Notes: a model not told the origin generated them from the sequence alone. DNA of 38,489 bases from Carbonactinospora thermoautotrophica (GCF_001543895.1 NZ_JYIJ01000011.1:170593-209081); one strand, 5' to 3'. Shown: positions 4,404 to 34,208, numbered from the stretch's first letter. Program-made: numbers and translations.

Positions 4404-6011
4404 TCAGACCATTCCGTTGATCACGAACTTGCTGAGCTCGCGACCGGTCTTGCCGTCGTAGGCGTGCACCGTGCAGACCAGGCAGGAGTCGAAGCTACGG
4501 GCGACGTGCCCGAGCTCGACCGGGTCCTCCTTGTCCTTGATCGGCGCGCCGACCATGGCCTGCTCGATCGGCCCGAGCGCCTCGTCCCGGTCACGCGGGC
4601 CGATGTTCCAGGCGGTGGGGGTGATGACCTGGTAGTTCGCGATCTTGCCGTCCTCGATCACGATCCAGTCGGACAGCGAGCCGCGGGCCGCCTCGGTGGA
4701 GCCGAAGCCCTTGCCCTCGGCGTACTCGGTCGGCTTAGTGTAGAAGCTGTCGTGAAGGTCGAGCTGGTCCAGCCAGCTGCGCACCCACTTGTAGTACTTC
4801 GGAGCCTCGTGCATCCGGGCGAGCTGGCGGACCAGCACCGACGGGCCGATGCGGTTGAGGATGTCCACGAACAGCGGGTCGTTGTCCTGGTGCGGGGCAG
4901 CGTTCGGGGCACCGGCGGCCACGCGGCGGGCCAGCGGGCCGGCCTCCAGCGGCACGTAGCCCAGCCCCGGCACGTCGTAGCGCGGCGACTTGGCCCAGCT
5001 GTACTTGCCCTGCTTCCGGCCGACCTCGGGGTCGATCGGCTTGGTCTCGCCCTCGAACGGGTGCAGTGGCTTGTCGCCCTCGTAGAAGGAGTGGGTGACG
5101 TCCTCCCGAACCCGGGCCTGGTCGAACTCGAACCACTGCCCCTTGGCGTAGATGCCCGAGCGCCCGATGAGGGCGGCGTTGCGGCCCTCGATGGTCGGGT
5201 TCTCGTACATCGAAGGCTCGAAGTAGGTGCCGGTGGCGATGTAGTTGCCGACACCGCCGCCGTACTTGTCCAGCCCGATGTCCATCGCGTAGCGGATGAA
5301 GAAGCCGCAGTCGCTGTTGTACTGCGACTCGTTCTCGTCCACCCAGGCGAGCACGTCATCCCAGGTGCGGTTCTCCAGCCAGCGGTCGATCGAACAGCCC
5401 AGCCACTGCTTCTCGAGCCAGTTGTCCTTCCAGTGCTCGAGGATGGCGATGGCGCGGGTCACGTCCGACAGTGTCGGGGCCGACATCACGCCGCCGGGGA
5501 CCATGAAGCTGGAGTGCGGCCACTGCCCACCGAAGATGGCGTAAACCTCGACCGGCTTTGCCGAGAGCACCACGCCGGGGCCGTAGCTGGTGCCGACGTA
5601 AGGCGCGAAGCGGCGCACCGCCTCGTCGTAGAGCTTCGACTTGGCGTAGTTCTTGTTCGTCAGGTCGATGGCGAACAGCGCGTAGAAGTAACGCGGGATG
5701 CTCTGCAGGGTCTCGCAGGCCTGGCAGATGTTACGGATGAGCGTCGCGTTGCGGGGCACGTGGGTCCGCCAGGCGACGTCGAGCGCATAGGCGGACTTAT
5801 AAAGGTGGCTGCCCCCACAGATGCCGCAGATGCGGGGAGTGACGATCAGGCCGGCCTGCGGGTCCTTGCCCCGCAGGATGATCTCGAAACCGCGGAACAT
5901 CGCGGCCTCGGTCCAGGCCGAGGTGACGACTCCGTCTTCGATAGTCACCCGCACGTCGAGGTCGCCCTCGACGCGGCCCAGCGGGCTCACGGACAGATCG
6001 ATGGCAGTCAT
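4404..6011 (-). CDS. hhyL: [NiFe]-hydrogenase large subunit, group 1h actinobacterial type
   Basis: 535 residues, full length. The catalytic subunit holds the NiFe(CN)2CO site that splits H2. The N-terminal ligand motif is RICGICGGSH (C62, C65, H69) and the C-terminal one is DSCLVCTVH (C510, C513, H516). The 19 residues after H516 are the peptide removed by the maturation protease encoded just downstream. Both selectable ligand positions are cysteine, so this is not a [NiFeSe] enzyme. The pairing with a small subunit lacking a Tat signal and the accessory gene set fit group 1h, the high-affinity oxygen-tolerant hydrogenases that scavenge atmospheric H2. The substrate range is inferred from the family. 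Confidence 0.95.
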   Translation of the reverse strand: MTAIDLSVSPLGRVEGDLDVRVTIEDGVVTSAWTEAAMFRGFEIILRGKDPQAGLIVTPRICGICGGSHLYKSAYALDVAWRTHVPRNATLIRNICQACETLQSIPRYFYALFAIDLTNKNYAKSKLYDEAVRRFAPYVGTSYGPGVVLSAKPVEVYAIFGGQWPHSSFMVPGGVMSAPTLSDVTRAIAILEHWKDNWLEKQWLGCSIDRWLENRTWDDVLAWVDENESQYNSDCGFFIRYAMDIGLDKYGGGVGNYIATGTYFEPSMYENPTIEGRNAALIGRSGIYAKGQWFEFDQARVREDVTHSFYEGDKPLHPFEGETKPIDPEVGRKQGKYSWAKSPRYDVPGLGYVPLEAGPLARRVAAGAPNAAPHQDNDPLFVDILNRIGPSVLVRQLARMHEAPKYYKWVRSWLDQLDLHDSFYTKPTEYAEGKGFGSTEAARGSLSDWIVIEDGKIANYQVITPTAWNIGPRDRDEALGPIEQAMVGAPIKDKEDPVELGHVARSFDSCLVCTVHAYDGKTGRELSKFVINGMV

Positions 6012-6062
6012 AGACGGTCCTTTCTCATGACCGATGCCAGCGTGGTGGAACGTCGCTGGGCG

Positions 6063-7034
6063 TCAGACGACGAACATGTCTTCCTTGGACCACTGCGGAG
6101 CGGCGATCCGCGCGGCGGCGGCGTGCGCCATGTAGGTCAGGTGATCGCTGCCCTCCGGGATCTCCTTCGGGATCATCCCGCTCACCTTCTGGGTCTTGAA
6201 CACCGTGCCCGGGGCGAGGTCGAAGAACGGGAACTCCGGCTCGGTGCATCCGGTGCAGGGCATGCCCGCACGGGTCTTGGAGGACTGCCGGTTCCACAGG
6301 ATCCGGTTACACGGCGAGTGGGTCATGGGGCCGCGGCAGCCGAACTCGTAGAAGAGGCAACCGGTGCGGGTGCCCTCGCCGAAGGAGGTGGTGGGCTGCT
6401 TGTACTCGAAGAACTGCACCCGGGTGCACCCGGTCTGGGTGAACGTCTTGAAGAAGGTCTGCGGCCGGTGCAGCTCGTCGAGCGCGATGTCACCGGCGCG
6501 CCCGGTGGCCAGCGCCACGATGATCTGGGTGATCCAGTCCGGGTGCGCGGGGCAGCCCGGGATGTTGATCACCGGCAGGCCCATCTTCGACCGGAAGTCC
6601 GGGCCGAGGAATCCGCCGCGCTCACGCTTGTGGAACTGCAAGCCGGTGGAGTCCGTCGGGTTCGGTTCCGTCGCCGGGATACCGCCCCAGCACGCGCAGT
6701 CGCCGATCGCCACCACGATCTGGGCGGCGTTCGCCAGGTCGGTGACCCAGTCCTTCATCGGCCGGTCGGCGAACATGTCGTAGCGGCCGGTGCCGTCCGG
6801 GCCCATCATGACGGTGCCCTCGAAGACGAAGATGTCCAGCGGACGCTTGCCCTGCGCGCAGTCCCAGAAAATCTTCTGCGCCTGCTTGCCCAGCTCCATA
6901 CCGAGCGAGGGGTGCCACAGCAGGTCCAGTCCGAAGTCCGTGATCAGATCGACAACGTTCGGTTCCTCAGCGTTCAGGAACGACATGGTGTTGCCGCTGC
7001 AGGCCCCGCCTTGGAGCCACAGCACTGACGCCAT
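6063..7034 (-). CDS. hhyS: [NiFe]-hydrogenase small subunit, group 1h actinobacterial type
   Basis: 323 residues from ATG 7034, preceded by GAGGAGAT. This subunit carries the iron-sulfur relay from the NiFe site. It begins directly with the flavodoxin-like domain (VLWLQGGACSGNT); there is no twin-arginine signal and no C-terminal anchor, so it is probably cytoplasmic or peripheral. Cysteines at 12, 113, 115, 161, 203, 226, 233, 242, 260 and 263 are candidate cluster ligands. Only one cysteine is present in the N-terminal motif, where many hydrogenases have CxxC; group 1h enzymes are reported to use an aspartate in the proximal cluster. hhyL follows after 51 bp. Confidence 0.95.
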   Translation of the reverse strand: MASVLWLQGGACSGNTMSFLNAEEPNVVDLITDFGLDLLWHPSLGMELGKQAQKIFWDCAQGKRPLDIFVFEGTVMMGPDGTGRYDMFADRPMKDWVTDLANAAQIVVAIGDCACWGGIPATEPNPTDSTGLQFHKRERGGFLGPDFRSKMGLPVINIPGCPAHPDWITQIIVALATGRAGDIALDELHRPQTFFKTFTQTGCTRVQFFEYKQPTTSFGEGTRTGCLFYEFGCRGPMTHSPCNRILWNRQSSKTRAGMPCTGCTEPEFPFFDLAPGTVFKTQKVSGMIPKEIPEGSDHLTYMAHAAAARIAAPQWSKEDMFVV

Positions 7035-9040: not shown

Positions 9041-9379
9041 GTGCACGAACTGTCGATCTGCCACTCCATCGCCGACATCGTCACCAGGCATGCCGGCGGC
9101 CGTCCGGTGCGCACCGTGCACCTGCGAATCGGGCAACTGCGGCAGATCGTCCCCGACACGCTCGTCTACTGCTGGTCCCTGGTCAGCCAGGACACCGCTC
9201 TTGAGGGCTCGGAACTGCGAGTCGAGAGCATCCCGGCGCAGATCCGCTGTGCCGAATGCGACCACGTCGAGACGCTCACCGCGCCGGTCATGCGATGCGG
9301 GATGTGCGGCGGGCAGCAGGTGTCGGTCGTGGCGGGCGATGAATTCCTGATCACTTCCTTGGAGCTCGCGGAGGCGTGA
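9041..9379 (+). CDS. hypA: hydrogenase nickel chaperone HypA
   Basis: 112 residues from GTG 9041, preceded by GAGGGGGGAAA. The start MHELSI carries the conserved His2 nickel ligand, and two CxxC pairs (C70/C73 and C86/C89) form the structural zinc site. HypA delivers nickel, together with HypB, to the large-subunit precursor. The length is normal for the family. hypB begins 6 bp after its stop, so the two form one transcription unit, and the araC gene lies just upstream. Confidence 0.95.
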   Translation: MHELSICHSIADIVTRHAGGRPVRTVHLRIGQLRQIVPDTLVYCWSLVSQDTALEGSELRVESIPAQIRCAECDHVETLTAPVMRCGMCGGQQVSVVAGDEFLITSLELAEA

Positions 9380-9385
9380 ACACTG

Positions 9386-10204
9386 ATGGGACGGTTCCAT
9401 CGGCACGACGACGGCCACGGCCACGGGCATGGGCACGAGCACGGGCACGAGCACGGACATGCCGCGGCGGGCAGCGGTGGGCGGATCCTCGGCGACCACT
9501 CGGGCTACCAGACCGGCGCTGAGCGGATCGAGGTGCTCGAGCGGATCCTCGGCGAGAACGAGCAGACGGCTGCGGCCAACCGCGCCGACTTCGAAAAGGC
9601 CCAGGTCACGGTGGTAAACCTGATGTCCTCACCGGGAGCCGGCAAGACCTCTTTGCTGCGCGAGACGCTGCGACGGCTGCAGGGCAAGCTGCGGATCGGC
9701 ATCATCGAGGGCGATATCGAGACCAGCCTGGACGCTGATCGGCTGGAAGGCTTCGGCGCCGCGATCGCGCTGGTGAACACCGGCAACGGCTTCGGCGGTG
9801 AATGCCACCTCGACGCGCCCATGGTGCGCTCCGCCCTCCCCCGGCTGCCGCTGGAGGAACTGGATCTCGTGGTCATCGAGAACGTCGGCAACCTGGTATG
9901 CCCGGCGGAATTCGAGGTCGGCGAGCACGGCCGCGCGATGGTCTTCTCCATCACCGAGGGCGAGGAGAAGCCGCTGAAGTATCCGGTCATGTTCCGCTCG
10001 GCCGACGTGGTCGTCGTCAACAAGATCGACCTGTTGCCATACCTCGATTTCGACCTGCAGGCGTTCTACGCCAACCTGCGCGCGGTGAACCCCACCGTGA
10101 CCGTCATCGAGACCAGCGTGAAGACCGGCCAGGGAATCGACGACTGGTGCTCCTGGCTGACCGGCGTTCGATCGAGCGGCCCGTCGCAAGCCCAAACGGT
10201 CTGA
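9386..10204 (+). CDS. hypB: hydrogenase maturation GTPase HypB with histidine-rich N-terminus
   Basis: 272 residues. Residues 6-25 are a His/Gly/Glu-rich stretch that can store nickel or zinc. The GTPase core has the P-loop SSPGAGKTS, the metal-site motif CHLDA with a second cysteine in NLVCPAEF, and the NKID base-recognition motif. The segment before CHLDA (NTGNGFGGE) is a few residues longer than the NTGKG of common HypBs. HypB hydrolyses GTP to drive nickel insertion with HypA. It follows hypA by 6 bp; no further hyp gene follows before selD. Confidence 0.94.
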   Translation: MGRFHRHDDGHGHGHGHEHGHEHGHAAAGSGGRILGDHSGYQTGAERIEVLERILGENEQTAAANRADFEKAQVTVVNLMSSPGAGKTSLLRETLRRLQGKLRIGIIEGDIETSLDADRLEGFGAAIALVNTGNGFGGECHLDAPMVRSALPRLPLEELDLVVIENVGNLVCPAEFEVGEHGRAMVFSITEGEEKPLKYPVMFRSADVVVVNKIDLLPYLDFDLQAFYANLRAVNPTVTVIETSVKTGQGIDDWCSWLTGVRSSGPSQAQTV

Positions 10205-18338: not shown

Positions 18339-19593
18339 GTGGCGTCCTCTCCGACCTCCCGACCGGCCGCGGCGCCGGCTCGGATGGGCCTGCTCACGGC
18401 GGCCCTCGCTCTGTTGTCGTTCGTCGTGCCGTTAGCCACGGACATGTACCTGCCCGCGTTCCCGCGGATGGTGGAGGAACTCCAGACGGACGCCTCGGGT
18501 ATCCAGCTGACGCTCACGGCCTTCATGATCGGCCTCGCGGTCGGGCAGTCGGTGCTGGGACCGTTACGACCGGTACGGCCGGCGGAAGCCCATCCTTATC
18601 GGTGCGGCCTTCTGCGCCCTCTCCACCGCGCTGTGCGCGGTGGCAACCTCGCTCGGTTGGCTGGTCGCACTGCGCTTCGTGATGGGTTTCAGCGGCGCGG
18701 CGGGCATCGTCGTGGGTCGGGCAGTCATCTCCGACGTCGCGAGCGGGAGGGTTGCGGCCCGCCTGTTCGGCATCCTGACGGCACTCGGCGGCATCGCACC
18801 GATCGTGGCCCCGCTGGCCGGCGGCGCCGTCGTCATCGCCGCCGGATGGCGAGGGGTCTTCTGGGCCTTGGCCGCCGCTTCGCTGCTGATGTTCCTCGCC
18901 GCGCTGTTCGCCGTGCCGGAGAGCCTGCCCCGGGAGAAGCGATACGGCAGCGGAATGCGCAGTACCCTGCGGGCCGTGGGCTCGGTCCTGACCAACCGCC
19001 CCTACCTCGGCTACACCTTCGCCTTCACGTTCGGCTGCGGCGCCTTGTACTGCTACATCGCCGCATCTCCGTTTCTCCTGCAGAAGGTCCTCGGGTTGAG
19101 CGTCGGTCAGGCATCGGTGGCCTTCGCCGGCGGGGCGCTGACCGCCACTGTCTCCAGCGCCGTCAACGCCAAGCTGGTCGACCACTTCGCCCCGGCCCGT
19201 CTGCTGCGCATCGGCCTGGCCACCATGGTCGCCGCTACGGCTGCGATGCTGGTGATCACCCTGGCCGGACAGCTGGGACGTGTCAGCGCGCTGGGACTGC
19301 TCGGGGTCACCTTCATTGGGCTCGGCATGGTGTTCGGCAACGCGACCGCTCTGGCCATCGACTACGTCCCGTACGCGGCTGGCACGGGGTCGGCCGTGCT
19401 CGGTACCTTGCAGAGCGCGCTCGGCGCGATCGTCGCGCCGCTGATGGGCCTCGGCGGAGAGCACACGGCTGTCCCGCTCTTCCTGGGCATGACCGCGTGT
19501 TCAGGCATCGCGGCACTGGCGCTGCTGCTCACCCGCGGCGCCGAGCCGTCCGCGGTCCGCGAGCACAAGGTCGCCGAGACCATCGGGCTCTGA
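18339..19593 (+). pseudogene. Bcr/CflA-family drug exporter with one frameshift
   Basis: The gene starts at GTG 18339 after AGGGAG. The first frame encodes TM1-TM2 (MGLLTAALALLSFVVPLATD, then MYLPAFPRMVEELQT and GQSVLGPL). It should continue as SDRYGRRKPxLIG (MFS motif A), but those codons (DRYGRRKPILIGAAFCALST) are in the +1 frame from about 18567. The rest reads through without interruption to TGA 19593, ending HKVAETIGL. Two bases missing, or one extra, near 18565-18567 would explain it. The intact protein would be about 415 residues with 12 TM segments. It is either a recent pseudogene or a sequencing error; conservation of the downstream frame argues for recency. Confidence 0.85.
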
Positions 19594-19629
19594 CCCGAAA
19601 GGGCAACCTGGCACATTAGCTGCTATCTG

Positions 19630-20100: not shown

Positions 20101-21351
20101 TCAGGGCACGGCGGCGGTGGCGGGGAGCTGGGCCGGAGCGGGGTGGATGACGGGTGTGATGCCTCCCGCGGCGCTCAGTGCACGGTGCATGGCGAGTTCC
20201 GCGGTGGGGCCTTCGGTGAGGACGATGCCGGTGCAGCCTCGTTGGTCGCTGAGGTGTTCGAAGCGGTCACCGGGGGTGGAGGTGGGGAACCACTCCGGGT
20301 TGCCCGGCAGGGTGGACAGGCGGTCGAGGCCGGACCATCCGGTGAGGGTTCCCGGTCGAGGGGCGTAGATGAGGACGAAGGCGACTGCGGGGCCGGATCC
20401 GAGGTGGTCGTCGAGCAACGTCGGGTGTTCGCCCAGAGCCATCGAGATCATGGCTGTGTAGACGTTGGTGTCGAGTGAGCGGCACAGTGCCTCCCCGACG
20501 AGCGCGCCGCCGATACGGCCGTTGATCTCGACGACTTCCGGACCTTGCGTGGTGAGGACGAATTCGGTGTGTGCGAAACCCTGCCGGTACCCTGCCGCGG
20601 CCAGCACCCGGGTGATCCACCGCTCCAGCGCCGCCCGCTCGTCCGGCGGGAAGGCCACCGGGAACGACGCTGCCTCCTCGCGCCGCAGCGGCTCGGGTGA
20701 GAGCTGGCGGCTGAGCACGCCGAGCAGCCGGGTGCGTCCCTGCCAGGTGAGGGTTTCGGCGCTGTAGACGGGTCCGGCGAAGAACGGCTCAGCGATCAGG
20801 TGGCCGTTGAGCGTGGTCTGCTGGGCTTCGCGTACCGCGCGGCCCAGTTCGTGCTCGTCGCGGATCAACCAGACGGCGCGGGAGGAGGTGCCGGCGGAGT
20901 CCTTGAGCACCAGAGGAAACCCGATCGCGGTGGCCACCCGTTCGGCCTCCGCGAGGGTGGGCGCGGTCGGGATCGCGGTCGCACGGCTCAGCCCACGCCG
21001 GTGCAGCAGCGCCCGGACCGCGCCCTTGTCGCGGAGGGTGCGCACCGTGTCGATGTCGGGTCCGGGGAGCCCGAGACGCGCGGCGAGTTCCGCGCCCGGG
21101 AGCGCCCAGGTGTCGGTGGAGCTGATGATCCCGGCCAGGTCGGGGATCCGGCGGAGCGCGGTTTCGCACGCGGAGACGTCGCCGGTGTCCACGTCCAGCA
21201 CGTCGAGTCGGTCCGGGCGCAGCCGGCGCAGCTCGTGGGCGTAGATCGAGCGGTCGCTGGTGAGCAGGCACAGGCGGTGCCCGGCCTGGGATGCCGCGTC
21301 GACCAGCCTGCCCAGTCCGAAGGTGAGCGCTTCGAGCAGTGCGATGGTCAC
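20101..21351 (-). CDS. ATP-grasp ligase of the predicted metallophore operon
   Basis: 416 residues from GTG 21351, which overlaps the stop of the PLP-enzyme gene (GTGA). The ATP-grasp fold shows conserved lysines near 109 and 150, the glycine-rich loop DSAGTSSRA (151-159), and the metal/ATP motif VVEINGRIGG (273-282). The family joins a carboxylate to an amine through an acyl phosphate; amino-acid ligases making dipeptides are the closest type. The substrates are unknown. It is the last gene of the operon, so it probably condenses the product of the PLP enzyme with another acid or amino acid. Confidence 0.85.
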   Translation of the reverse strand: MTIALLEALTFGLGRLVDAASQAGHRLCLLTSDRSIYAHELRRLRPDRLDVLDVDTGDVSACETALRRIPDLAGIISSTDTWALPGAELAARLGLPGPDIDTVRTLRDKGAVRALLHRRGLSRATAIPTAPTLAEAERVATAIGFPLVLKDSAGTSSRAVWLIRDEHELGRAVREAQQTTLNGHLIAEPFFAGPVYSAETLTWQGRTRLLGVLSRQLSPEPLRREEAASFPVAFPPDERAALERWITRVLAAAGYRQGFAHTEFVLTTQGPEVVEINGRIGGALVGEALCRSLDTNVYTAMISMALGEHPTLLDDHLGSGPAVAFVLIYAPRPGTLTGWSGLDRLSTLPGNPEWFPTSTPGDRFEHLSDQRGCTGIVLTEGPTAELAMHRALSAAGGITPVIHPAPAQLPATAAVP

Positions 21352-22430
21352 GACACCCTGTCCTTCCGGTGTTCCTGCGGGGAAATCAGCCGAACCGCCG
21401 GGTAGCTGCGGCGTGCCCAGCGCATGGCTGACCACGGTGGCGTGAGGTCGGCCAGCGACGTGATCTCCACGGGGGCGAGCCTGGCCGGGTCCAGCGCCTC
21501 GCGGTGCCGGGTGAACACTCGCTCGGTGTACCGGTGCCCGGTGTCGGCTCCTATGACGAGGTGCGTGCGTTCGGGATGGCGGCGAGCCTCCCACGCGGCG
21601 ACCAGGTAGGCGGCGCCGGTGGACAGCCCCGCGAAGACGGCGTGGTCGCGCAGCAGCGCGACCGCTCCGGCCATCGCGTGCCGGAAGTCCAGCCAGTGCA
21701 GACGGTCGTACAGCTCGTGCCGGACGTTGCCGAAGTGGATGGCGCTGCCGATGCCGGCGATGATGGCATCGGGATCGGAGAACCGTTCGCTGCCGAAGGT
21801 GACGCTGCCGAAGGGTTGGATGCCGACCAGGCGGACGGCGGGGTCGCGGCGCCGCAGCGACTCGACGAGCCCGCCGGTGGAGGCACCTGTGCCGACGCTG
21901 CCCACGATCGTCAGCGGCACGCCCGGTAACGCGGCGTTGACGAGTTCCGCCAGTTCGGCGTAGCCGAGATAGTGCACCGGGTCGTGGTACTGCCGCATCC
22001 AGTGCATGTCGGGGTTGCGCTGCAGCAGTTCGCGTACGCGGGCCACTCTGCGTTGCTGGTCGAGCTGCAGGTCCGTCGACGGGGGCATCTGGTCCACGGT
22101 GGCGCCGAGGATCTCCAGCTGGACTCGCATCGTGGTGTCGACGGTGGTGGAGGCGACGATGTGGCAGCGCATCCCGTACCGGTGGCAGGCCATCGCCAAC
22201 GCCAGCGCGTAGATGCCGCTGGAGCTGTCGACCAGCGTCTGGCCGGGGTGAACGATCCCGCGGTCCAGCAGGGAGCGCACGGCGCCGAGCGCGGCATAGA
22301 CCTTGAGGGTCTCGAAGCGGGCCAGCACCACGTTGTCCGCCAGGCGGACGAAGCTGGGTGCTTTGATCGCGTCGGTGATGTGGGAGTGGACCGGAACGGC
22401 GGTGCCGGACTGTGCGCGCACGGTAGTCAC
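21348..22430 (-). CDS. PLP-dependent cysteine-synthase-fold enzyme
   Basis: 360 residues from GTG 22430, overlapping the stop of the binding-protein gene. The fold-type II features are a candidate Schiff-base lysine in RFETLKVYAA (K43), the substrate loop SSSG (69-72) and the phosphate-binding loop GSVGTGASTGG (177-187). Such enzymes perform beta-replacement on serine derivatives; SbnA of staphyloferrin B synthesis and the EDDS zincophore enzymes are examples that make diaminopropionate-type precursors. The motif around K43 differs from the usual NPGGSxKDR of CysK, so it forms a divergent branch. No SbnB-like partner is present. A role in chelator synthesis is inference from context. Confidence 0.82.
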   Translation of the reverse strand: MTTVRAQSGTAVPVHSHITDAIKAPSFVRLADNVVLARFETLKVYAALGAVRSLLDRGIVHPGQTLVDSSSGIYALALAMACHRYGMRCHIVASTTVDTTMRVQLEILGATVDQMPPSTDLQLDQQRRVARVRELLQRNPDMHWMRQYHDPVHYLGYAELAELVNAALPGVPLTIVGSVGTGASTGGLVESLRRRDPAVRLVGIQPFGSVTFGSERFSDPDAIIAGIGSAIHFGNVRHELYDRLHWLDFRHAMAGAVALLRDHAVFAGLSTGAAYLVAAWEARRHPERTHLVIGADTGHRYTERVFTRHREALDPARLAPVEITSLADLTPPWSAMRWARRSYPAVRLISPQEHRKDRVS

Positions 22431-23431
22431 CGCCCGATGGAGCGTAGGTAGGCGGCGAGGCTCTCAGCACCCTGAACGTTGCGCGGGCCGCTGACCATGT
22501 CGCCGTAGGAGATGACGTGGAACCGGTTGTTCCGCACGGCCGGCACGGTGGCGAGTTGAGGCAGCGACTTGAGGAAGGCGATCTTTTCCTGGGCGGTCTG
22601 GCCGGCGTAGTCGACCACGACGATCACCTCGGGTTCGGCCTTCACCACCGCCTCCCAGCCGACGGTGCCCCAGCCTTTCTCCAGGTCGTCGAAGATGTTG
22701 CGGCCGCCGGCGACCTCGATGATGTCGTTGGGTGCGGCGTGTCGTCCGGCGGTGAAGGGCTGGTCGGTGCCGGAGTCGTAGACGAACACCCGCGCGGGCG
22801 GCGTGTTCTTGGGCGCACCGGCGCGCACCGCGTCGACGCGTGCGCGCAGCTCCGCGACGAGTTCCCGGGCCCTGGGCTGGACCTGGAAGATCTCGCCAAG
22901 GTTGAGCAGGTCGGTGTAGAGCGCCTCCAGTGGCCTGACGTCCGCGCGCGAGGCCGGGTAGTTCCAGCACGTTTCGGTGTGCAGGTAGCTGCGGATGCCG
23001 ACCTGTTCGAGCAGTTGCGGCGTGATGCCTCTTTCCTCGCTGAAGCCGGAATTCCAGCCGGCGATCACCCAGTCGGCCTTGGCTTTGACCAGGATCTCCC
23101 GCGTCACGCGGGAGGTGCCGAGCCGCTCCACCCGCGCGTAGTCGTCCTTCCACGGGGAACCGGCGATGGACGGGTCGCCGAGCGAGTTCATCACATAGCC
23201 GCGCATCCGGCCGGCCAGGCCCAGGGAGAACATCTTCTCCGCCCCGCTGACGTCGTAGGCGACGGGACGCTGCGGAATCGGGTAGGTGACCTGTGCGCCG
23301 CAGTTGGTCACCGTCACTTCCGCCGCACCCGCCTGGTGTGACGGTTTGACGTCGGCTCCGCACGCGGTCAGCAGCAGCGCGCCGGCCGTCAGCACGGCGA
23401 CAGGCATGCCGGTGTTGCGCGACAGCGTCAT
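22427..23431 (-). CDS. ABC transporter substrate-binding lipoprotein (FecB/FepB type)
   Basis: 334 residues from ATG 23431, which overlaps the ATPase stop. It has a lipoprotein signal peptide with lipobox LTAC (Cys24). The mature part reads as a two-lobed periplasmic-binding-type protein: NCGAQVTYPIPQRPVAYDVS, WVIAGWNSGFSE, PNDIIEVAGGRNIFDDLEKG, WEAVVKAEPEVIVVVDYAGQ. It is anchored outside the membrane and captures a metal-chelate such as a siderophore. It adjoins the matching ATPase and FecCD permease genes. The exact ligand is unknown. Confidence 0.9.
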   Translation of the reverse strand: MTLSRNTGMPVAVLTAGALLLTACGADVKPSHQAGAAEVTVTNCGAQVTYPIPQRPVAYDVSGAEKMFSLGLAGRMRGYVMNSLGDPSIAGSPWKDDYARVERLGTSRVTREILVKAKADWVIAGWNSGFSEERGITPQLLEQVGIRSYLHTETCWNYPASRADVRPLEALYTDLLNLGEIFQVQPRARELVAELRARVDAVRAGAPKNTPPARVFVYDSGTDQPFTAGRHAAPNDIIEVAGGRNIFDDLEKGWGTVGWEAVVKAEPEVIVVVDYAGQTAQEKIAFLKSLPQLATVPAVRNNRFHVISYGDMVSGPRNVQGAESLAAYLRSIGR

Positions 23432-24237
23432 CGTGAGATCCCCTCAGGAGTTGTGGCGTCGTCGGTCGGCAGGTCGTAGAGCAACTGCGGCGCGCCGGTC
23501 CGCGGGTGGGTCACGACCGTGACGTCCACCCCGAAGACCGAACGCACCAGCTCCGGGGTGAGCACCTCCGCCGGCGTCCCAGAGGCGACCAACGTCCCGG
23601 AGCGCAGCACCGCGACCCGGTGGCAGGTGGCGGCGGCGAGGTTGAGATCGTGCAGCGCGACGAGAACCGTCAAACCGCAGCCCCGCAGGAACGACAGCAG
23701 CTCGACCTGGTGCCGTACGTCGAGGTGGTTGGTCGGCTCGTCGAGCACGAGCACCGCCGGTTCTTGAACCAGTGCCCGGGCCAGGAGCACGCGCTGCCGC
23801 TCGCCCCCGGACAGGGTGAGCACGCTGCGCTGCGCCAGGTGGGTGATGTCCAGGCGGCGCAGCGCGTCCCGGCACAGCTCGCGTTCCCGGGCGGTCAGCC
23901 GCAGGTTGCCGCGCTGGTGCGGTGACCGGCCCAGCGCCACGACCTCCTCCACGGTGAAGTCCAGTTCCATGCGGCTTTCCTGGGTGAGCGCGGCGATCCG
24001 CCGCGCGGTCTCGCGAAGGCTCTGCCCGGACAGGTCGGCGCCGTCGAGCAGCACCACACCGGAGGACGGCCGCAGCGCCCGGTAGACGCAGCGCAGCGCG
24101 GTGGACTTGCCGCTGCCGTTGGGTCCCAGCAGGCCGATGATCTCGCCCGCGCCGACGTCCAGCCGCAGCTCGCGGATCAGCGTCGCCCCCGCGACCTCGA
24201 CCGAAACGTCGCGCAGCGACAGCGGAAGCGGGCGCAT
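23428..24237 (-). CDS. ABC transporter ATPase (FecE/FhuC type)
   Basis: 269 residues from ATG 24237 (ATGA overlap with the permease stop). Walker A is GPNGSGKST (38-46), the signature LSGGE (142-146), Walker B VLVLDEP (162-168), and the H-loop is in LVALHDLNLA. Length and sequence (VVALGRSPHQ in the Q-loop-to-signature region) fit the iron-chelate/cobalamin import class. It powers import through the FecCD permease encoded immediately upstream. Confidence 0.92.
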   Translation of the reverse strand: MRPLPLSLRDVSVEVAGATLIRELRLDVGAGEIIGLLGPNGSGKSTALRCVYRALRPSSGVVLLDGADLSGQSLRETARRIAALTQESRMELDFTVEEVVALGRSPHQRGNLRLTARERELCRDALRRLDITHLAQRSVLTLSGGERQRVLLARALVQEPAVLVLDEPTNHLDVRHQVELLSFLRGCGLTVLVALHDLNLAAATCHRVAVLRSGTLVASGTPAEVLTPELVRSVFGVDVTVVTHPRTGAPQLLYDLPTDDATTPEGISR

Positions 24238-25337
24238 CAGCGGCCTCCGAACAGGTAGCCGCGGCGGCGCATCACCACGAGGAACACCGGGACACCGATC
24301 AACGCCGTGATCACTCCCAACGGCAGTTCCTCCGGGGGGACCAGCGTGCGGGCCAGCACGTCGACCCACACCAGGAAGCACGCGCCGGCCAACGGTGCCA
24401 CGGCGAGCACCCGGCGGTGCGCCGACCCGACCACCATGCGCACCACGTGCGGCAGGACCAGGCCGACGAAGCCGATGGCGCCGCTGACGGCCACCAGCAC
24501 ACCGGTCACCACAGCGGTGAGGACGAACAACTGCCGCCGCAGTCTCGCGGCGTCCACCCCCAAGCTGGCGGCGGTCTCGTCCCCCATCGACAACACGTCC
24601 AGCGCCGTGCTGCGGCGCAGCAGCACCACCACGGCCACGACCACCGCGACCAGCGCCAGCGGCAGCGACTCCCATGTCGCCGCGCCCAGGCTGCCGAGCA
24701 GCCAGAACAGCACCGTCTGCGCTGCCTGCCCGTTGGGCGACAGGAACACCAGCACGCTCATCACCGCCTGAAAGGCGTAGGCGAGCGCGACACCGGTGAG
24801 CACCAGCCGCAACGGAGTGAGGCCCAGGCGGCTACGGGCGGCGAGGTAGACGAGCACGGTCGCGGCCAGCGCGCCGAGGAACGCGGCCGTGGACAACGCG
24901 AGCACGCCGAGCCCGGCGAACAGGCCGAAGACCACCACCGCGGTGGCCCCGACCGAGGCGCCGGAGGAGATTCCCAGCACGAACGGGTCGGCCAGGGCGT
25001 TACGGACCAGCGCCTGTACAGCGACCCCGACCACGCTCAGCCCCGCACCGACCACCGCAGCCAGCAGCACCCGGGGCGCGCGCACGTTCCAGACGATCGA
25101 GTACGCGGTGACCTCGTCGGCGCGGATGGAGCCACCGGTGATCGCCGCGTCCAGATAGCGCAGCACGTCACCGAGAGGCACGACAGTAGGACCGAGGGCG
25201 ATACCAGCGATCACCGACAGCACCAGACCCGCACCCAGCACCAGAAGCGGCGTGGTCAGCTGGATCGCGCGCGCGTGACGGTCGTCCGGCTCGGCGAGCA
25301 GCCGCAACGCCACATCGGTGGCCTGCTCAGCTCGCAC
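24237..25337 (-). CDS. FecCD-family metal-chelate ABC permease
   Basis: 366 residues from GTG 25337. It has about ten hydrophobic segments with family motifs: RAPRVLLAAVVGAGLSVVGV, ALVRNALADPFVLGISSGAS, AIGFVGLVLPHVVRM and EELPLGVITALIGVPVFLVV. One permease gene is present, so it probably works as a homodimer like BtuC. It overlaps the methyltransferase gene by 11 bp and the ATPase by 3 bp. It imports a siderophore-like or cobalamin-like chelate; the biosynthetic neighbours favour a self-made chelator. Confidence 0.92.
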   Translation of the reverse strand: MRAEQATDVALRLLAEPDDRHARAIQLTTPLLVLGAGLVLSVIAGIALGPTVVPLGDVLRYLDAAITGGSIRADEVTAYSIVWNVRAPRVLLAAVVGAGLSVVGVAVQALVRNALADPFVLGISSGASVGATAVVVFGLFAGLGVLALSTAAFLGALAATVLVYLAARSRLGLTPLRLVLTGVALAYAFQAVMSVLVFLSPNGQAAQTVLFWLLGSLGAATWESLPLALVAVVVAVVVLLRRSTALDVLSMGDETAASLGVDAARLRRQLFVLTAVVTGVLVAVSGAIGFVGLVLPHVVRMVVGSAHRRVLAVAPLAGACFLVWVDVLARTLVPPEELPLGVITALIGVPVFLVVMRRRGYLFGGR

Positions 25338-26067
25338 GGGTACCTCGCACGATCAGCCGCCGGGCGTGATTGTCGTAGGCAGCGGCATCGAAGTCGCCGA
25401 AGCACTCCACGTCGCTGAAGCCCGCGGCCTCGAACAGCGCGCGCAGCTCCGCCGCGCTGTAGAGGTACGACACGATCGACGCGCGGCGCACCGTGTCCCC
25501 GCGTACCAGGGTCCAGTCGGTGCGTAACCGAGTCCAGTCATCCAGGATCGTGTCCCGCATGAACACCGTGCCGCCCTCGACGTCCACGGCCTGCGGACGG
25601 CCGACCCAGCTGGCGAGAACCTCCTTGCCCAGCACGTCGACCAGCAGCCGACCACCAGGTGCCAGGCTGGCGAAGGCGTTGCGCAGCACCCTCAGGTTGT
25701 CGTCCGGGTCGGTGAAGTACCCGAAGGAGGTGTACATGCTGATGACCAGATCGAACGCGCCCGGATCGACGTACTCGCGCATGTCGGCCCGGACGAGACG
25801 GGCGCGCACGCCCGCCCGCTCACAGGCCACGCGGGCGCGGTCCAGCATCGCCGGACTCAGATCGACCCCGGTGACCTCGGCGCCCCGTCGCGCCAGCGGC
25901 ACCACGTGAAGTCCCGGACCGCAGGCCAGATCCAGCACCCGCGTACCCGCCGCGACCTGCAGCAGCGGGGACGTGGCGACCAGCTCAGCGGCCTCGGCCT
26001 CGCGCCGCGCCGAAAACATCACGCTCGCGAAACCGACCCACAGATCATCGTCCTCGTACCAGTGCAT
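25327..26067 (-). CDS. class I SAM-dependent methyltransferase
   Basis: 246 residues from ATG 26067 (MHWYEDDDLWVGF), with GGGGTGG upstream. The SAM-binding motif I is VLDLACGPG (44-52), followed by VTGVDLSPAML and DLVISMYTSFGYFTD. The substrate is not predictable. Its overlap with the permease gene puts it in the operon, where it could N- or O-methylate the chelator made by the PLP and ATP-grasp enzymes. Confidence 0.87.
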   Translation of the reverse strand: MHWYEDDDLWVGFASVMFSARREAEAAELVATSPLLQVAAGTRVLDLACGPGLHVVPLARRGAEVTGVDLSPAMLDRARVACERAGVRARLVRADMREYVDPGAFDLVISMYTSFGYFTDPDDNLRVLRNAFASLAPGGRLLVDVLGKEVLASWVGRPQAVDVEGGTVFMRDTILDDWTRLRTDWTLVRGDTVRRASIVSYLYSAAELRALFEAAGFSDVECFGDFDAAAYDNHARRLIVRGTRAS

Positions 26068-26345
26068 GCCACCCCGCTCATCCACCCCATCCAGCGAAGG
26101 GCGACCACCCGTATCACGACCACCCGTATCAGCAGTCGTTGATCGGCGCGCTCCGGTTCCCGGCACGGGTGACTTTCCCGAGCGGGTCGCGCCGCGAGCA
26201 GAGGCACCAGCCCGCTGACGAGCTCGTCGAGCGGCAGGAAGATCAGGGCCAACAGCGCCAGCCTCACCGGCTGCCCGCGGTGCTCCACCCGGGAGGAAGC
26301 ACGGCCAGCCAGCAGAACCGAGCGGTTCTGCGACTGTGCGGATGG
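26068..26345. other. 278-bp gap in the operon with a 15-bp tandem repeat
   Basis: This is the only real spacer in an otherwise overlapping operon. It contains two exact adjacent copies of CGACCACCCGTATCA (26102-26116 and 26117-26131), 35 bp upstream of the methyltransferase start. An internal promoter or operator is possible. A minus-strand frame from GTG 26288 has a hydrophobic start (RLALLALIFLPLDELVSGLV), but no supporting family. Confidence 0.5.
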
Positions 26346-27572
26346 TTACTTCCGGCTGGGGCAGACGCGCGAGGCAGCCACAACGGCCATAAAGGTGAGA
26401 CCGCCGAACACCGAGGCCGCTCCGGAATACCCGGCGAGCGCGAGCCCGAGACCACCGAGCGCGGCCCCGGCAAAGGTGCCCAGGCTCATCCCCGCGGCGT
26501 TGACACTCAGGGCCGAGCCCCGCAGCGGTCCGCTGCGTCTCACCAGCAAGCCCACCACGCACGCGGCCACCCCTGCGTGGCTCGCGCCCAGCAGGGCGGT
26601 CAGCAGCAGCGCCAGCGGCAGCGCGGTGGTGAAGAAGATCCCCACGACCGCGCCGAGAGCGACCAGTAACCCCACCAGCAGTATCTGCTCGGGCCCGAAC
26701 CGCGGCCGGACACGGTTGGTGTAGCGGCCCACCAGCAGGTTACCGACGAAAAACGACGTCCCGCTAAGCGTCCAGACCAGCGCGAACGCACCAGCACCCA
26801 GCTGGAAACGCGCGTCGTAGAACGCCGCCAGGTAGGACAGATAGCCCATGAACGCCGCCGCACGCAGCACGGACACGGCAAGCAGCGGCACCGCACCGGG
26901 CACATGGACCAGCGCACGAAATGACGCCGTGTAACCGGGGAGCCGCTCCCGCTCACCGCCCCGGGCGCCGGCGGGTGCCCACCGGCGCAGGATGAGGGCG
27001 AGCAGCAGCGCGACCACCGCCACAGCCAGCAGATCACCACGCCAGCCCCACACGGTCGCGGGCAGCGCGACCGCCGGGGCGGCGAGCATCGCGACCAACG
27101 ACTGCGTCGCGGTCACCAACGTCGCCGCACGGCCGGCAGCGGCGCCGTCACCGAAGCGATCCGCGGCCGCCGCGCCGAGCGCGGGGCTGAGCACCGACAG
27201 CGCCGCGCCCGCCAGCAGGCAGAAGGCGACCATCGCGACGAACACGCCGAGGACGCCGATCAGCGCCGAGACGGCGAGCAGCACCAGCCCGCCAGCGGCG
27301 ACCTGATGGCGCGGCGCCCGGTCGAGCAACGGCGCGAACGCCACACCCACGATCAGCGCCGCAAGCCCGCCAAGCCCTCTCAGGCTGCCCATCGCCGCCA
27401 CCCCGCTGCCGGCCTCGCGCGCGATCGGCACGAGAAACGTGCTGAACACGGTGAACGGCAGCAGGCTCACCACCGAAGCCAGCAGAACAGGCCACAGAAT
27501 CCGCGCTATCTGCAGATCGCTCGGTACCGCATCGGGAACACGAGCGTCCGGGCCCCCCGCTTCAGCACTCAC
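26346..27572 (-). CDS. MFS exporter, first gene of the predicted metallophore operon
   Basis: 408 residues from GTG 27572, with about 12 hydrophobic segments (ILWPVLLASVVSLLPFTVFS, TLSGTSFFVGNLLVGRYTNR and SALSVNAAGMSLGTFAGAAL are examples). The length suits 12-TM drug/metabolite efflux proteins. It is the leading gene of the leftward set and is the likely secretion route for the chelator; importer genes follow. A short upstream frame with a strong ribosome-binding site overlaps its start. The substrate is inferred from context only. Confidence 0.87.
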   Translation of the reverse strand: MSAEAGGPDARVPDAVPSDLQIARILWPVLLASVVSLLPFTVFSTFLVPIAREAGSGVAAMGSLRGLGGLAALIVGVAFAPLLDRAPRHQVAAGGLVLLAVSALIGVLGVFVAMVAFCLLAGAALSVLSPALGAAAADRFGDGAAAGRAATLVTATQSLVAMLAAPAVALPATVWGWRGDLLAVAVVALLLALILRRWAPAGARGGERERLPGYTASFRALVHVPGAVPLLAVSVLRAAAFMGYLSYLAAFYDARFQLGAGAFALVWTLSGTSFFVGNLLVGRYTNRVRPRFGPEQILLVGLLVALGAVVGIFFTTALPLALLLTALLGASHAGVAACVVGLLVRRSGPLRGSALSVNAAGMSLGTFAGAALGGLGLALAGYSGAASVFGGLTFMAVVAASRVCPSRK

Positions 27573-27621
27573 GTCGCAAACCCACCCGCCCCCTCGCGGG
27601 CCGTGCGTACGACCCCCCCAC
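27562..27621 (-). CDS. possible 19-codon leader peptide overlapping the MFS start
   Basis: GTG 27621 is preceded 5 nt upstream by GGAGGAG (27627-27633), the best ribosome-binding site nearby. The frame (MGGSYARPARGRVGLRREC) ends at TGA 27562, 10 bp inside the exporter gene, whose own GTG has a weaker site. This arrangement would couple exporter translation to the leader. Alternatively the site belongs to a longer frame that I cannot identify. Confidence 0.35.
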   Translation of the reverse strand: MGGSYARPARGRVGLRREC

Positions 27622-28165: not shown

Positions 28166-29898
28166 GGTTCTGGCCCATATTTCGTGATGAAGTTGGCCCT
28201 TGCTGTCAGGTGGCGTGGAGGATGCGTTTGCGGAGCAGGTCGAACTTGGCGCGGCCGTACATCTGCCTTTTGATCATTTTGATGCGGTTGATGTTGCCTT
28301 CCACGGCGCCCGAGCTGTGCGGGAGGGTGAGTCCGTTGCGGACGGCGGTGTAGTCGCGCCTGAGTCCTCGCACGAAGCGGTGCAGGTGGGGCAGGTCGTC
28401 GGCGTCGACCTTGGCCATCCAGGAATCCAGGCGCTCGCCGTGCCGGCCGGTGAGGATCTCGGCGAACGCCGTGACGTGGGCGGCGGCGGTGTCCAGGTGC
28501 GGACAGACGGCGAGGATCTGCTTGAGCTTGGCCTGTTCGTCGGCGTCGAGGTCATCGGGGTGGCGCAGCATCCAGGAGGTGATGCGGCGGACCTTCGGCA
28601 CGGCTGGCTGGGCGGGTGGTGCGGCGCCCAGCGCCCGGAACGGCGCGAGGTAGGCGGCGACGGTGCCCAGGCTGCCCCGGTAGCCCTGTTCGGTGATCTC
28701 CCGATAGAGGGTGCTGGCGCCTGTGCAGCCGGCGTTCCAGCGTTCGTGCAGGTAGGGCTTGTAGGCATCGAGGATGCTGGGCCGTCCGGCGCGGGGTTTG
28801 GCCAGCAACTCCTCGACGCTGTCGGCGCGGTAGAAGCGGCGCACGGTCTCCTTGGCCAGCCCGAGTTCCCGCATGATCGGCTTGATGCCCTTGCCCTGGG
28901 CCTTCAGCGCCTGGACCGCGTCGTAGCGGGCCTTGGTGCGCGCCACCAGGCGGGAGTTCTCCCGGCGCTCGGCGTGAGCGGCCTCGGCCGCCTCGGCGAG
29001 TTCGGCGGCGCTGGTCGCCTGAGCCGGGACCTCGAGTGGAATGTCGGCCTCACGGCGCAAACAGCCGTGGTGGGCGGCGACGGTCTTCTCCACGTACTCG
29101 GCGAGGTTGTGCCACACATGCCAGCGGTCCGCGACCTGGATCGCCTCTGGCGCACCGGCTTGGGCGCCTTCGGCGTAGGCGCCGGCGCGGTCCCGACACA
29201 CCACCGCGGTGCCGGGATGCCCGGCCAGCCAGGCAGCGAACGTCTCGGCCTGCCGGTCGTCGAGGACGTCGATCGGCCGGTGGGTGTCCAGGTCGACCAG
29301 GACCGTGCCGTAGCGATGGCCACGCCGTAGCGCGAAGTCGTCCACGCCGAGGACCGCCACCGGGCCGACCTCGGGATCGGGCAGGGCCCGGACCAGACGG
29401 AGCAGCACGTTGCGGCCCACCGGCATCCCTAACCTGGCGGCCAGGCGGGACCCGGCTCGGCCGGCCAGCGCCACCCCGATCGCCTCCAGCATCGCCCGCA
29501 GCAGCGCCGTGCGCCGACCGTAGGGCACGGTCAGGCCCGCGACCTGCTCGGCGAACGTCCTGACCCGACAGCCTTCGTCGTCACAGAAGAACCGGCGCAC
29601 CCGCAGCCGAATCACCACACGCCGACCGGCCAGTGCCGCATCGGCGAGCCTGCGCTCATACCGGCTGTGCACCCGCACCGACTCACAACCGCAGCCGGGA
29701 CACGCCGCGGCCGCTCCCCGCGGATACGCCCAGATCCACACCGCGCCACGGATCTCCTCGACCCGCTCGATCACCACACCAGCCAGGTGCGGCAGCAGAA
29801 CGCTCAGATCGTGATCAACACACGCCCGAACATGATCACAGAGCCCTCGCCAGCACCCCGCAGGGGGCCATGCCGATCACGAAATATGGGCCAGAACC
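28166..29898 (-). mobile_element. ISL3-family insertion sequence A
   Basis: A 1733-bp element bounded by perfect 23-bp terminal inverted repeats at 28166-28188 and 29876-29898 (tips GGTTCTGGCC). It carries one transposase gene. The 8 bp outside the ends are CGAATCTG and AGTTTTCG, so there is no target duplication, unlike a simple ISL3 insertion. The left flank is intron-like sequence and the right flank is truncated drmB, so this is a recombination junction. Confidence 0.9.
28206..29777 (-). CDS. ISL3-family transposase (copy A)
   Basis: 523 residues from GTG 29777, full length. The N-terminal zinc-binding part is [20 protein letters not shown] with FFCDDEGC. The catalytic domain follows: [52 protein letters not shown], and the C-terminal [20 protein letters not shown] holding the glutamate. 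There are no frame breaks. It is related to, but clearly different from, the copy at 32619-34172. Confidence 0.92.
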
Positions 29899-31320
29899 AG
29901 TTTTCGCGAAGCGTTGACAGACTTCCCCTACGTGCACTTTGTGCACCGTGGCGCAGAGTGCGCCAAGGCCAGCCACCCCATCCTGCGGATGGACGACCGC
30001 GGCGGCAACATCGGCGCCAACGTGGCGATCCAGTGCCTCAGCTGCGAGGAGCGCCGCAACATCCGGGAGGCGATGGGCCGGCGCGGGGAGGAGAACCTGC
30101 CACGCTGCCGGGGCCGCCACCCCCATCTGGGCACTTTCGACCCGCGGGGTTGCGGCAAGGACCCCAAGGTGCTCGTGATCGGCGCGTCCAACCAGTGGTT
30201 CCCGCAGACGCTGTCCGCGCTTGCCGTGCCGCCCAGCGGTGCGAGCGCGCTGGACGCCAAGGTCGAGCAGCACTGGAAAGTCCTCAAGGGCATTCCCGAC
30301 AAGGCCATGCTGGCGTACCTGCGTGAGAACAGCGAAAGCTTCCCGGTCTTCCGCGAGTTCGAGAAGTGGAGCGACGAGGAGATCTGGAACGCGATCGAAC
30401 GACGCCGCCAGGCCCCGGAAACAGGGGAGGAAGCCGGGCGCGGCTATCCCGACCTGCGGACCCCGGAATGGGAGGTCTTCTCCTCCCCCCACCTGCCCGA
30501 GCCCACCGACGACTTCGCCCTGCACCGTGGCCCGGTGCCGGACCCGCTGGCCGGCGTGTACGCCGACGTCGTCCAGGCCGAGCGGCTGCGTGAGGTCCGA
30601 GCCCTGGTCGGGTTCACCCGCCTGGACGCCCCCGACCCCGACGACCCCGACCTGGTGGTACGCGCCCCGCTGGCCCGCTCGGCACCCACCTGGGTGCCGG
30701 CGAGCGAGGTCCGAGGAGAGGGGATCTTCCTGCGGCTGCCGGAGGACCTGCTGCGCGACTGGGAAAAACGCGTCCAGGACTCCGCGGCCCTGCGGGCGCA
30801 TGAGGAAGCGTACGCCCGGTTCCGCAGCAACCGGTACTCCGACCGCATCCCCGGGTCGTTCGACCCGATGGACCACTGGCCCGGAGCCCGCTACCTCGCC
30901 CTGCACACGCTGTCCCACCTGCTGATCCGCACGATCGCGCTGGAATGCGGCTACAGCTCGGCCAGCCTCGCCGAGCGGATCTACGCCGGCACCGAGGACG
31001 ACCCGCGCAACGGCATCCTGATCTACACGGCGGTTCCGGACGCCGAAGGCACGTTGGGCGGCCTGGTCTCGCTGGCCGAACCCGAGCCGCTCCTCCGGCT
31101 GACCCGCCGCGCCCTCGACGACGCCCGGCGCTGCTCCTCCGACCCGCTGTGCGCCGAACGGCTGCCGCACCCGCCCGCCGACTTCCTGCACGGGGCGGCC
31201 TGCCACGTGTGCCTGTTCGTCTCGGAGACCACATGCGAGCGGGGCAACCGGTTCCTGGACCGGCGGTTCATCGTTCACATCGACGAGCCCGAGCTGGCAC
31301 TGTTCCCTGACCTGCCATGA
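29899..31320 (+). pseudogene. drmB: DISARM protein DrmB (DUF1998), N-terminally truncated
   Basis: About 470 codons remain, beginning right at the ISL3 end with TDFPYVHFVHRGAECAKASH, a conserved internal DrmB block, so roughly the first quarter is gone. Later DrmB features are intact: IQCLSCEERRNIREAMGRRG, VIGASNQWFPQTLSALAVPP, and the DUF1998 core HTLSHLLIRTIALECGYSSA with ERIYAG and GILIYTAVPDAEGTLGGLVS, then HGAACHVCLFVSETTCERGN. DrmB works with the DrmA helicase to block incoming phage DNA. No start codon or promoter of its own is evident. It overlaps drmC (ATGA at 31317). Confidence 0.87.
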
Positions 31321-32523: not shown

Positions 32524-34208
32524 GGTTCTGTCGACGATCTTGTGATGCGGACGGTTCAGCGGGACGGCCAGTGCGCTGGTGATTATGCTGCGCGTGTTCT
32601 GGTGACGTCCTGGAAGAGTTGTTTCCGCATCTGGCCGACCTGGTGGTCGAGCGCGTTGAACGCCAGGCGGATGCAGTGGTGTTGTGTGGCCGGGTGCGGT
32701 CGGCTGCCGCATCGTGTCCGTGGTGCGGGCAGATGTCCGACCGGGTGCACGGCGGTTATCTCCGGCGTCTGCGGGATGCCGCCGTGGGCGGTACTGGTGT
32801 CGTGATCGTGTTACGGGTACGGCGCTTCCGCTGCACCAACGGAGACTGCCATGCCGTGACGTTCGCCGAGCAGGTGACCGGGCTCACGACCCCGCACAGC
32901 CGCTACACCCCGCTGCTGCGCGGTTTGCTGACCCAGATCGGCCTGGCCCTGTCGGGCCGGGCGGGAGTACGGCTGGCGGCCGCGGCCGGCCTGACGGTGG
33001 GCCGGGACACCCTGCTGAAGCTGGTGAAGGCGCTGCCCGACCCCGACATGGGGCCGGTGGAGGTGCTGGGGGTGGACGACTTCGCTTTCCGTAAGGGATA
33101 CCACTACGGCACCGTGCTGATCGACATGGCCACGCGGCGCCCGCTGCACCTGTTCGACGGCCGCGAAGGTGGGGACCTGGCGGCCTGGCTGCGACAGCAC
33201 CCCGAGGCCAGGGTGATCTGCCGGGACCGCTCCGGCGGCTACGGGGAAGGCGCCCGGCTGGGGGCACCCCAGGCAGCACAGGTCGCCGACCGGTTCCACC
33301 TGTGGCAGAACCTCGGCCAGGCCGTGGAGAAGACGGTCAGCACCCATCGGGCCCGCCTCGCCGAACCCGCGACCGCGCCACCGGCTGGGCCCACGCCGCA
33401 GGTGGTGCAGCCACCAGCGGAGCTGAAGATCGTCACCCGGCTGCGGACCCGGTACGCCGCGGTGCACAAGCTGCGCGCCGAGGGGCTGTCGAAGGCGGCG
33501 ATCGGCCGCAAACTCGGCCTGTGCCAGGCCACCGTCGGCAAACTCGCCGACGCCCGCACCGTGGACGACGTGATCGCCAAGAGCCAGCACCGCGCCCACA
33601 TCGTCGATCCGTACACCGGATACCTGCACCGCCGCTGGCACGAAGGCGTACGCAACGCCGCCCAGCTCTTTCGCGAGATCCAGGAACTCGGCTACCCCGG
33701 AGGTGAGTTGGCCGTCCAGCGTTACCTGCGGCGGTACCGGACAGGACGCGGGCACGCCCCGCATCCCGGCCCGAAGCCGCCCCCGGTCCGCGAGGTCACC
33801 TCCTGGATCACGACCCACCCCGACCACCTCAGCGAGGACGACGCCGCCAAACTACGAGGGCTCCGGGACCGGGACGCTGAGCTCGACCGGCTCACCAGCC
33901 ACGTCAGGGCCTTCGCCGCGATGATGACCGGCCGGCACGGCGACCGCCTGAAGGAGCGGATCACCAGCGTCGAGCAGGACCCCCTGCCGCCGCTGGCCTC
34001 CTTCGCCCGCAACCTCCGCCGCGACCTGGACGCGGTCCGCAACGGGCTGTCCCTGCCCTACAGCTCCGGCGCGGTCGAAGGCAACATCAACCGGCTGAAG
34101 ATGCTCAAGCGCCAGATGTTCGGCCGCGCCGGCCTCGACCTGCTCCGCACACGCGTCCTCCTCGCGAGATGACCGCAGCCGTCGGATCACAAGATCGTCG
34201 ACAGAACC
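32524..34208 (+). mobile_element. ISL3-family insertion sequence B
   Basis: A 1685-bp element with perfect 23-bp terminal inverted repeats at 32524-32546 and 34186-34208 (tips GGTTCTGTCG). It sits inside an IS256 transposase gene. The 8-bp flanks are CGCACCTT and CGGATCTT, equal at 6 of 8 positions, so the target duplication has either diverged or comes from two different IS256 copies. The tips differ from element A after GGTTCTG. Confidence 0.9.
32619..34172 (+). CDS. ISL3-family transposase (copy B)
   Basis: 517 residues from TTG 32619; the frame is open a little further upstream. It has the zinc-binding N-terminus (SCPWCGQMSDRVHGGYLRRL, FRCTNGDCHAVTF), the catalytic [46 protein letters not shown], and the C-terminal [20 protein letters not shown]. 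It is intact, so the element may be mobile. It is a divergent relative of copy A. Confidence 0.9.
   Translation: MFPHLADLVVERVERQADAVVLCGRVRSAAASCPWCGQMSDRVHGGYLRRLRDAAVGGTGVVIVLRVRRFRCTNGDCHAVTFAEQVTGLTTPHSRYTPLLRGLLTQIGLALSGRAGVRLAAAAGLTVGRDTLLKLVKALPDPDMGPVEVLGVDDFAFRKGYHYGTVLIDMATRRPLHLFDGREGGDLAAWLRQHPEARVICRDRSGGYGEGARLGAPQAAQVADRFHLWQNLGQAVEKTVSTHRARLAEPATAPPAGPTPQVVQPPAELKIVTRLRTRYAAVHKLRAEGLSKAAIGRKLGLCQATVGKLADARTVDDVIAKSQHRAHIVDPYTGYLHRRWHEGVRNAAQLFREIQELGYPGGELAVQRYLRRYRTGRGHAPHPGPKPPPVREVTSWITTHPDHLSEDDAAKLRGLRDRDAELDRLTSHVRAFAAMMTGRHGDRLKERITSVEQDPLPPLASFARNLRRDLDAVRNGLSLPYSSGAVEGNINRLKMLKRQMFGRAGLDLLRTRVLLAR

Follow-up and report, generated by a model that had tools for sequence, protein, structure and literature searches.

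A putative NRPS-independent copper metallophore operon behind a SigC-type promoter in Carbonactinospora thermoautotrophica

Gene layout of the locus

The window, a stretch of 38,489 nucleotides from Carbonactinospora thermoautotrophica (GCF_001543895.1 NZ_JYIJ01000011.1:170593-209081), carries a string of seven genes on the minus strand at positions 20101-27572 (Table 1). An earlier sequence-only reading of this DNA had described seven genes in one direction and assigned a family to each. Both statements are borne out, as all seven lie on the minus strand at the expected places and the family calls agree with Pfam and profile matches. The string brings together predicted functions in biosynthesis (PLP, GRASP and MT), export (MFS) and import (FecBCD). 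The closest solved chains to the FecB-type lipoprotein are 4mlz and 4n01, both periplasmic binding proteins, and the choice of start codon for MT is backed by a conserved M[x]WYED N-terminus.

Table 1. Features of the operon region, with positions in the window
Feature	Position	Strand	Evidence and remarks
MFS transporter	26346..27572	-	Probable exporter; outside the reach of the SigC-type promoter; Pfam MFS_1 9e-26
SigC/ECF-type promoter GGGAACCGGAGCGCGCCGATCAACGACTGCTG	26130..26161	-	94 nt 5′ of the MT start
SAM-dependent methyltransferase (MT), 246 aa	25327..26067	-	Methyltransf_25 2.5e-22
FecCD-type ABC permease	24237..25337	-	PF01032 5.9e-88
FecE-type ABC ATPase	23428..24237	-	ABC_tran 7.4e-34
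FecB-type substrate-binding lipoprotein, lipobox LTAC	22427..23431	-	Peripla_BP_2 1.7e-22
PLP enzyme (PLP), cysteine-synthase/SbnA fold type	21348..22430	-	PALP 2.8e-34
ATP-grasp ligase (GRASP), LAL_C2 domain, L-amino-acid-ligase type	20101..21351	-	ATP-grasp_4 1.8e-10; LAL_C2 1.6e-15

From MT through the permease, the ATPase, the binding protein and PLP to GRASP, consecutive genes overlap by 11, 1, 4, 4 and 4 nt. The sole intergenic gap in the string, of approximately 280 nt, separates MFS from MT, in agreement with the earlier reading that one junction does not overlap. The upper limit of the locus had been placed at 27621. This position is not in the MFS frame, so the start of this gene is most likely the GTG at 27572, which is also the best start found. 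As the strong ECF-type promoter resides inside the MFS-MT gap, the promoter-driven unit comprises six genes, from MT to GRASP. The description of the locus as a single seven-gene operon therefore holds for these six, and the MFS gene is probably transcribed apart, on its own transcript, since the SigC-type promoter starts at MT.

Elsewhere in the window, two ISL3-family transposases (28206-29777 and 32802-34172) flank a gene whose product has an MZB (MrfA Zn-binding) domain (29914-31320). On the plus strand, a frame at 18339-19619 overlaps one at 18640-19593; the latter looks like an MFS-type drug transporter, and thus the gene may be frameshifted. The large and small subunits of a NiFe hydrogenase are encoded on the minus strand at 4404-7025, and a likely HypA-like gene and a His-rich HypB-like gene are located at 9041-10204.

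The conserved triad, its promoter and a SigC-type sigma factor

Close relatives of the PLP enzyme were sought in one genome per species, yielding 68 loci, or 69 with the window. Both MT and GRASP accompany the PLP gene in 64 of the 69, forming a triad that occurs in Streptomyces, Amycolatopsis, Saccharothrix, Actinokineospora, Kibdelosporangium, Saccharopolyspora and Sphaerisporangium; a PLP relative is also present in one Acidobacteria MAG. The MT-PLP-GRASP core of the gene set thus recurs widely in actinobacteria, with the FecBCD genes in a subset to which the window belongs. No description of the set was found in the open-licence literature searched. A ferric-reductase-like membrane protein is encoded close to the triad in 23 loci, and an ECF sigma factor of the SigC family in 38. 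It was also observed that a small His/Met-rich membrane protein (family c6, without a Pfam or NCBIfam family) is encoded beside SigC in 29 loci, such as L060 (14566-15189) and L046 (5118-5846); it may serve as a copper sensor or as the partner of an anti-sigma system.

The promoter consensus 5′ of MT is GGGAAC-N17-CGAC, often extended to CGACYNYTG. The exact form GGGAAC-N17-CGACYNYTG has a single match in the 5.13 Mb home genome, at 26130-26161, and this site reaches a weight-matrix score of 23, with the second-best site in the window at 10.9. With a spacer of 16-18 nucleotides allowed (GGGAAC-N16-18-CGAC), 51 of the 52 loci have the motif on the right strand no more than 450 bp from MT, where approximately 1.3 would be expected from its background frequency in these sequences; as these loci are related, the figure reflects conservation as opposed to 51 independent events. 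A genome-wide search with two mismatches was swamped by chance (239 matches versus 257 for the control), and so only exact or fixed-position matches were counted. The exact motif also gives occasional chance matches, as does a reversed control pattern, and it is the position 5′ of MT that carries weight.

The other targets of this promoter are informative as to its role. Fifteen triad-bearing genomes hold 18 exact matches: 11 are located just 5′ of the triad, four precede a gene for a His/Met-rich membrane protein that has a PepSY gene behind it, one precedes the importer in a chalkophore cluster of the isonitrile (ScoA-E-like) type, and two are apparently due to chance. In further genomes, regions chosen by eye from a 246-genome list, and so not an unbiased sample, show the motif 5′ of genes for a Cu P-type ATPase with an HMA domain, for PCuAC and PepSY proteins and for a ZnuABC-like importer, as well as 5′ of isonitrile clusters and SigC-type genes. 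In Streptomyces, it is located 5′ of Cu-ATPase, PCuAC and isonitrile-chalkophore genes. Mycobacterial-type genomes with an nrp operon, recognised by gene content, have GGGAAC-N17-CGAC 5′ of a ctpB-like ATPase and of ppe1, and in two genomes of this type it precedes a ScoE-like gene. Counting against the copper reading, the two copper-ATPase genes found in the home genome have no SigC-type site in the flanks examined, and PCuAC was not found. A separate observation concerns locus L192 (11073-13405), where an ABC-3 (ZnuABC-like) importer, close to a GHMP-PLP-GRASP-MFS-MT operon, has a SigC-type site on its 5′ side; similar sites are present in L195 and L199, and the importer of L192 may be a copper importer of another kind.

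The ECF factors near the triads have SigC as their best model match, at 164-214 bits (cut-off 219). The SigC-like factor of the home genome, at C17:66293, scores 189 bits, somewhat below the family cut-off of 219, with the next ECF factor at 67 bits. Its gene adjoins a zf-HC2 anti-sigma gene, which has its own GGGAAC-N17-CGAC site. In the same stretch of the home contig (L129, 7377-16999), genes resembling cydABDC of the copper-free cytochrome bd oxidase, assigned by reading the sequence, are found approximately 3 kb from the SigC-like factor. From the promoter and the sigma factor genes, it is very likely that the operon is controlled by SigC.

In Mycobacterium tuberculosis, ctpB and ppe1-nrp are upregulated when SigC is induced, and the poor growth of a sigC mutant in copper-deficient medium is reversed by copper (PMC7924339). 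The mutant is sensitive to limitation of copper, not of zinc (PMC9600254). The link from this organism to the window runs through homologous promoters and not through the operon itself. A link to the lpqS-cysK2-Rv0849 operon of M. tuberculosis was also considered and dropped, as this is a RicR-regulated copper-toxicity operon and no direct SigC target (PMC7924339). The regulon points to copper as the metal concerned.

Enzyme chemistry, a zinc sister clade and the proposed pathway

The PLP enzyme retains the invariant lysine K43 and the motifs that bind the cofactor, with a glycine-rich GTGAS loop and a D-x-G-x-R-Y motif. The best solved matches to its profile are 9k2p (CapA1) and SbnA 5d87, each at approximately 149 bits. 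Its structure model (mean pLDDT 81, weak at 208-234) has O-ureido-L-serine synthase as the top fold match, alongside CysK, CBS and SbnA. For GRASP, both the profile and the AlphaFold model find their best match in the L-amino acid ligase 3vot. A GHMP kinase gene adjoins the PLP gene in some triads and in most loci of the sister clade described below, which suggests that the PLP substrate is phosphorylated; no homologue of this kinase was detectable in the home genome. The simplest proposal for the product is an amide-linked, methylated compound of the diaminopropionate type.

In the PLP tree, the triad clade is separate from a sister clade whose PLP proteins are approximately 60% identical to the triad enzyme. 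The sister operons (L163-L171, L180 and L182) encode PLP, a GHMP kinase, DUF364, a small methyltransferase, FecBCD and an MFS protein. Their permease and ATPase share 64-68% identity with those of the window, the binding protein approximately 50%, and the MFS protein, in several loci, approximately 60-65%. DUF364 is a “putative heavy-metal chelation” protein. Zur boxes are present in nine of 11 sister loci as opposed to none of the 69 triad loci, with 20 shuffled motifs giving no hits, and they lend independent support to the view that this PLP family makes metallophores. The sister operons are candidates for an undescribed zinc metallophore. On balance, the two clades appear to represent a widespread and undescribed NRPS-free metallophore class built on one SbnA-like PLP enzyme, with a SigC copper branch (ATP-grasp ligase and MT) and a Zur zinc branch (GHMP kinase, DUF364 and another methyltransferase). 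More distant PLP relatives are accompanied by ATP-grasp ligases in other clusters (L172-L179 and L181), some with a tetrapyrrole-methylase-fold protein and some beside or inside NRPS clusters.

Under copper shortage, the operon quite probably serves to produce a small NRPS-independent copper metallophore, or chalkophore, and to take it up again. The first step of this scheme is strongly supported at the sequence level: a SigC-type ECF factor, encoded elsewhere beside a zinc-finger anti-sigma, would transcribe MT to GRASP. The later steps are suggested by protein families and gene neighbourhood. The SbnA-like enzyme would act by beta-replacement, converting an activated and probably O-phosphorylated serine-type substrate into a diaminopropionate-type amino acid. 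This would be joined by the ATP-grasp enzyme to another amino acid through an amide bond, and the product would be methylated by MT. Export of the methylated product may proceed through the MFS protein, and the copper complex would be re-imported through FecBCD. The proposal of an undescribed NRPS-independent metallophore operon, already made from the sequence, has the best support of the readings considered. The choice between iron, zinc and some other metal had been left open; the promoters speak for copper and against the first two, as neither Zur nor iron boxes are found at those of the triad operons.

Alternative readings and comparison with known systems

It is unlikely that the metallophore serves zinc or iron, or is a broad-range chelator that just happens to be expressed when copper is short. 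Such a role would be in keeping with the sister clade, which combines Zur boxes with the same importer and exporter families, with siderophores as the usual cargo of FecBCD importers, and with SbnA being a siderophore enzyme. However, no Zur-like site with up to two mismatches occurs in 1.31 Mb of triad loci, and Zur control of the triad operons was rejected. Control by iron boxes of the DmdR/IdeR type was likewise rejected; these are almost absent from triad loci, the only similar sites being in three related Streptomyces loci, approximately 1 kb beyond the PLP gene. The operon shares its promoter with copper genes, and iron could be served by two separate IucA/IucC synthetases in the genome.

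The distribution of the transport genes bears on whether the copper compound is scavenged at all. Many Streptomyces triad loci have an MFS gene and no FecBCD at the locus, so that import in these species must use other genes. A different MFS, not of the window's type, is found in 34 other triad loci; the window's type adjoins it at L040 and L049, both from Actinokineospora. This pattern would suit an intracellular copper buffer or an exported copper-binding antibiotic, with FecBCD in another role, as would the membership of the cysteine synthase CysK2 in the M. tuberculosis copper-toxicity operon (PMC7924339). Yet the importer lies within the triad gene string in the window, Amycolatopsis, Actinokineospora, Kibdelosporangium and Sphaerisporangium, FecBCD is likewise present in the isonitrile chalkophore clusters that share the promoter, and SigC of M. 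tuberculosis answers copper shortage, not excess (PMC7924339). A non-scavenging role is thus quite improbable. Very improbable indeed is a dipeptide-type natural product cluster of the ordinary sort, with an importer unrelated to it and a promoter match due to a general ECF stress factor, for although natural-product clusters, NRPS ones included, do hold distant PLP/ATP-grasp relatives (L172-L179, L181), copper genes dominate the other targets of the promoter and the sigma factor is SigC-like.

The proposed copper metallophore operon may be compared with several known systems. Staphyloferrin B (sbn) is produced independently of NRPS with an SbnA-like PLP enzyme, an MFS exporter and a FecBCD-type importer. 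The window operon differs in having an ATP-grasp ligase in place of an IucA/C ligase, in lacking an iron box, and in a PLP enzyme whose score against the SbnA model TIGR03945 (136.7 bits) falls far under the cut-off of 349.95. The absence of SbnB and IucA/C noted earlier holds for the operon, as neither SbnB (ornithine cyclodeaminase fold) nor an IucA/IucC synthetase is among its seven genes. It also holds genome-wide for SbnB, whose best match scores 19.6 bits against a Pfam cut-off of 24, but not for IucA/IucC, of which two copies reside elsewhere in the home genome.

The EDDS route also uses SbnA-like chemistry. [S,S]-EDDS of Amycolatopsis japonicum is a Zur-controlled actinobacterial metallophore (PMC6103462), comparable by its description with the zinc sister clade; the window operon has no Zur box.

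Among antibiotics, a cysteine-synthase-type PLP enzyme is combined with an ATP-grasp ligase in the clusters for dapdiamide (dda) and D-cycloserine (dcs). The window operon shares this pairing, and the top fold match of its PLP model is O-ureido-L-serine synthase, but the other dda and dcs enzymes are not seen in it. These clusters are not known to have a metal importer or a SigC-type promoter.

The diisonitrile chalkophores (SF2768 ScoA-E in Streptomyces; nrp in M. tuberculosis) share the SigC-type promoter motif and a role in copper acquisition, and the Streptomyces system has a FecBCD-type importer, as does the window operon. However, they are made by NRPS and isonitrile enzymes, none of which are present in the operon, and a ScoE-type isonitrile synthase has no match in the home genome at E <= 1e-60. 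Mutual exclusion between the triad and the isonitrile cluster was considered and rejected (six of approximately 33 overlap, 3.6 expected).

Few bacterial copper metallophores have been described. Those of actinobacteria in the literature covered here (diisonitriles and chalkophomycin) come from large NRPS or NRPS-PKS assembly lines. If the copper reading is true, the compact route of three enzymes, which is common in Streptomyces and its relatives, would define a novel class of copper-chelating natural products, and the SigC-type regulon in Streptomyces would gain a concrete target. The triad and its Zur-controlled sister would then offer a natural comparison of the ways in which a single biosynthetic scaffold is fitted to either copper or zinc.
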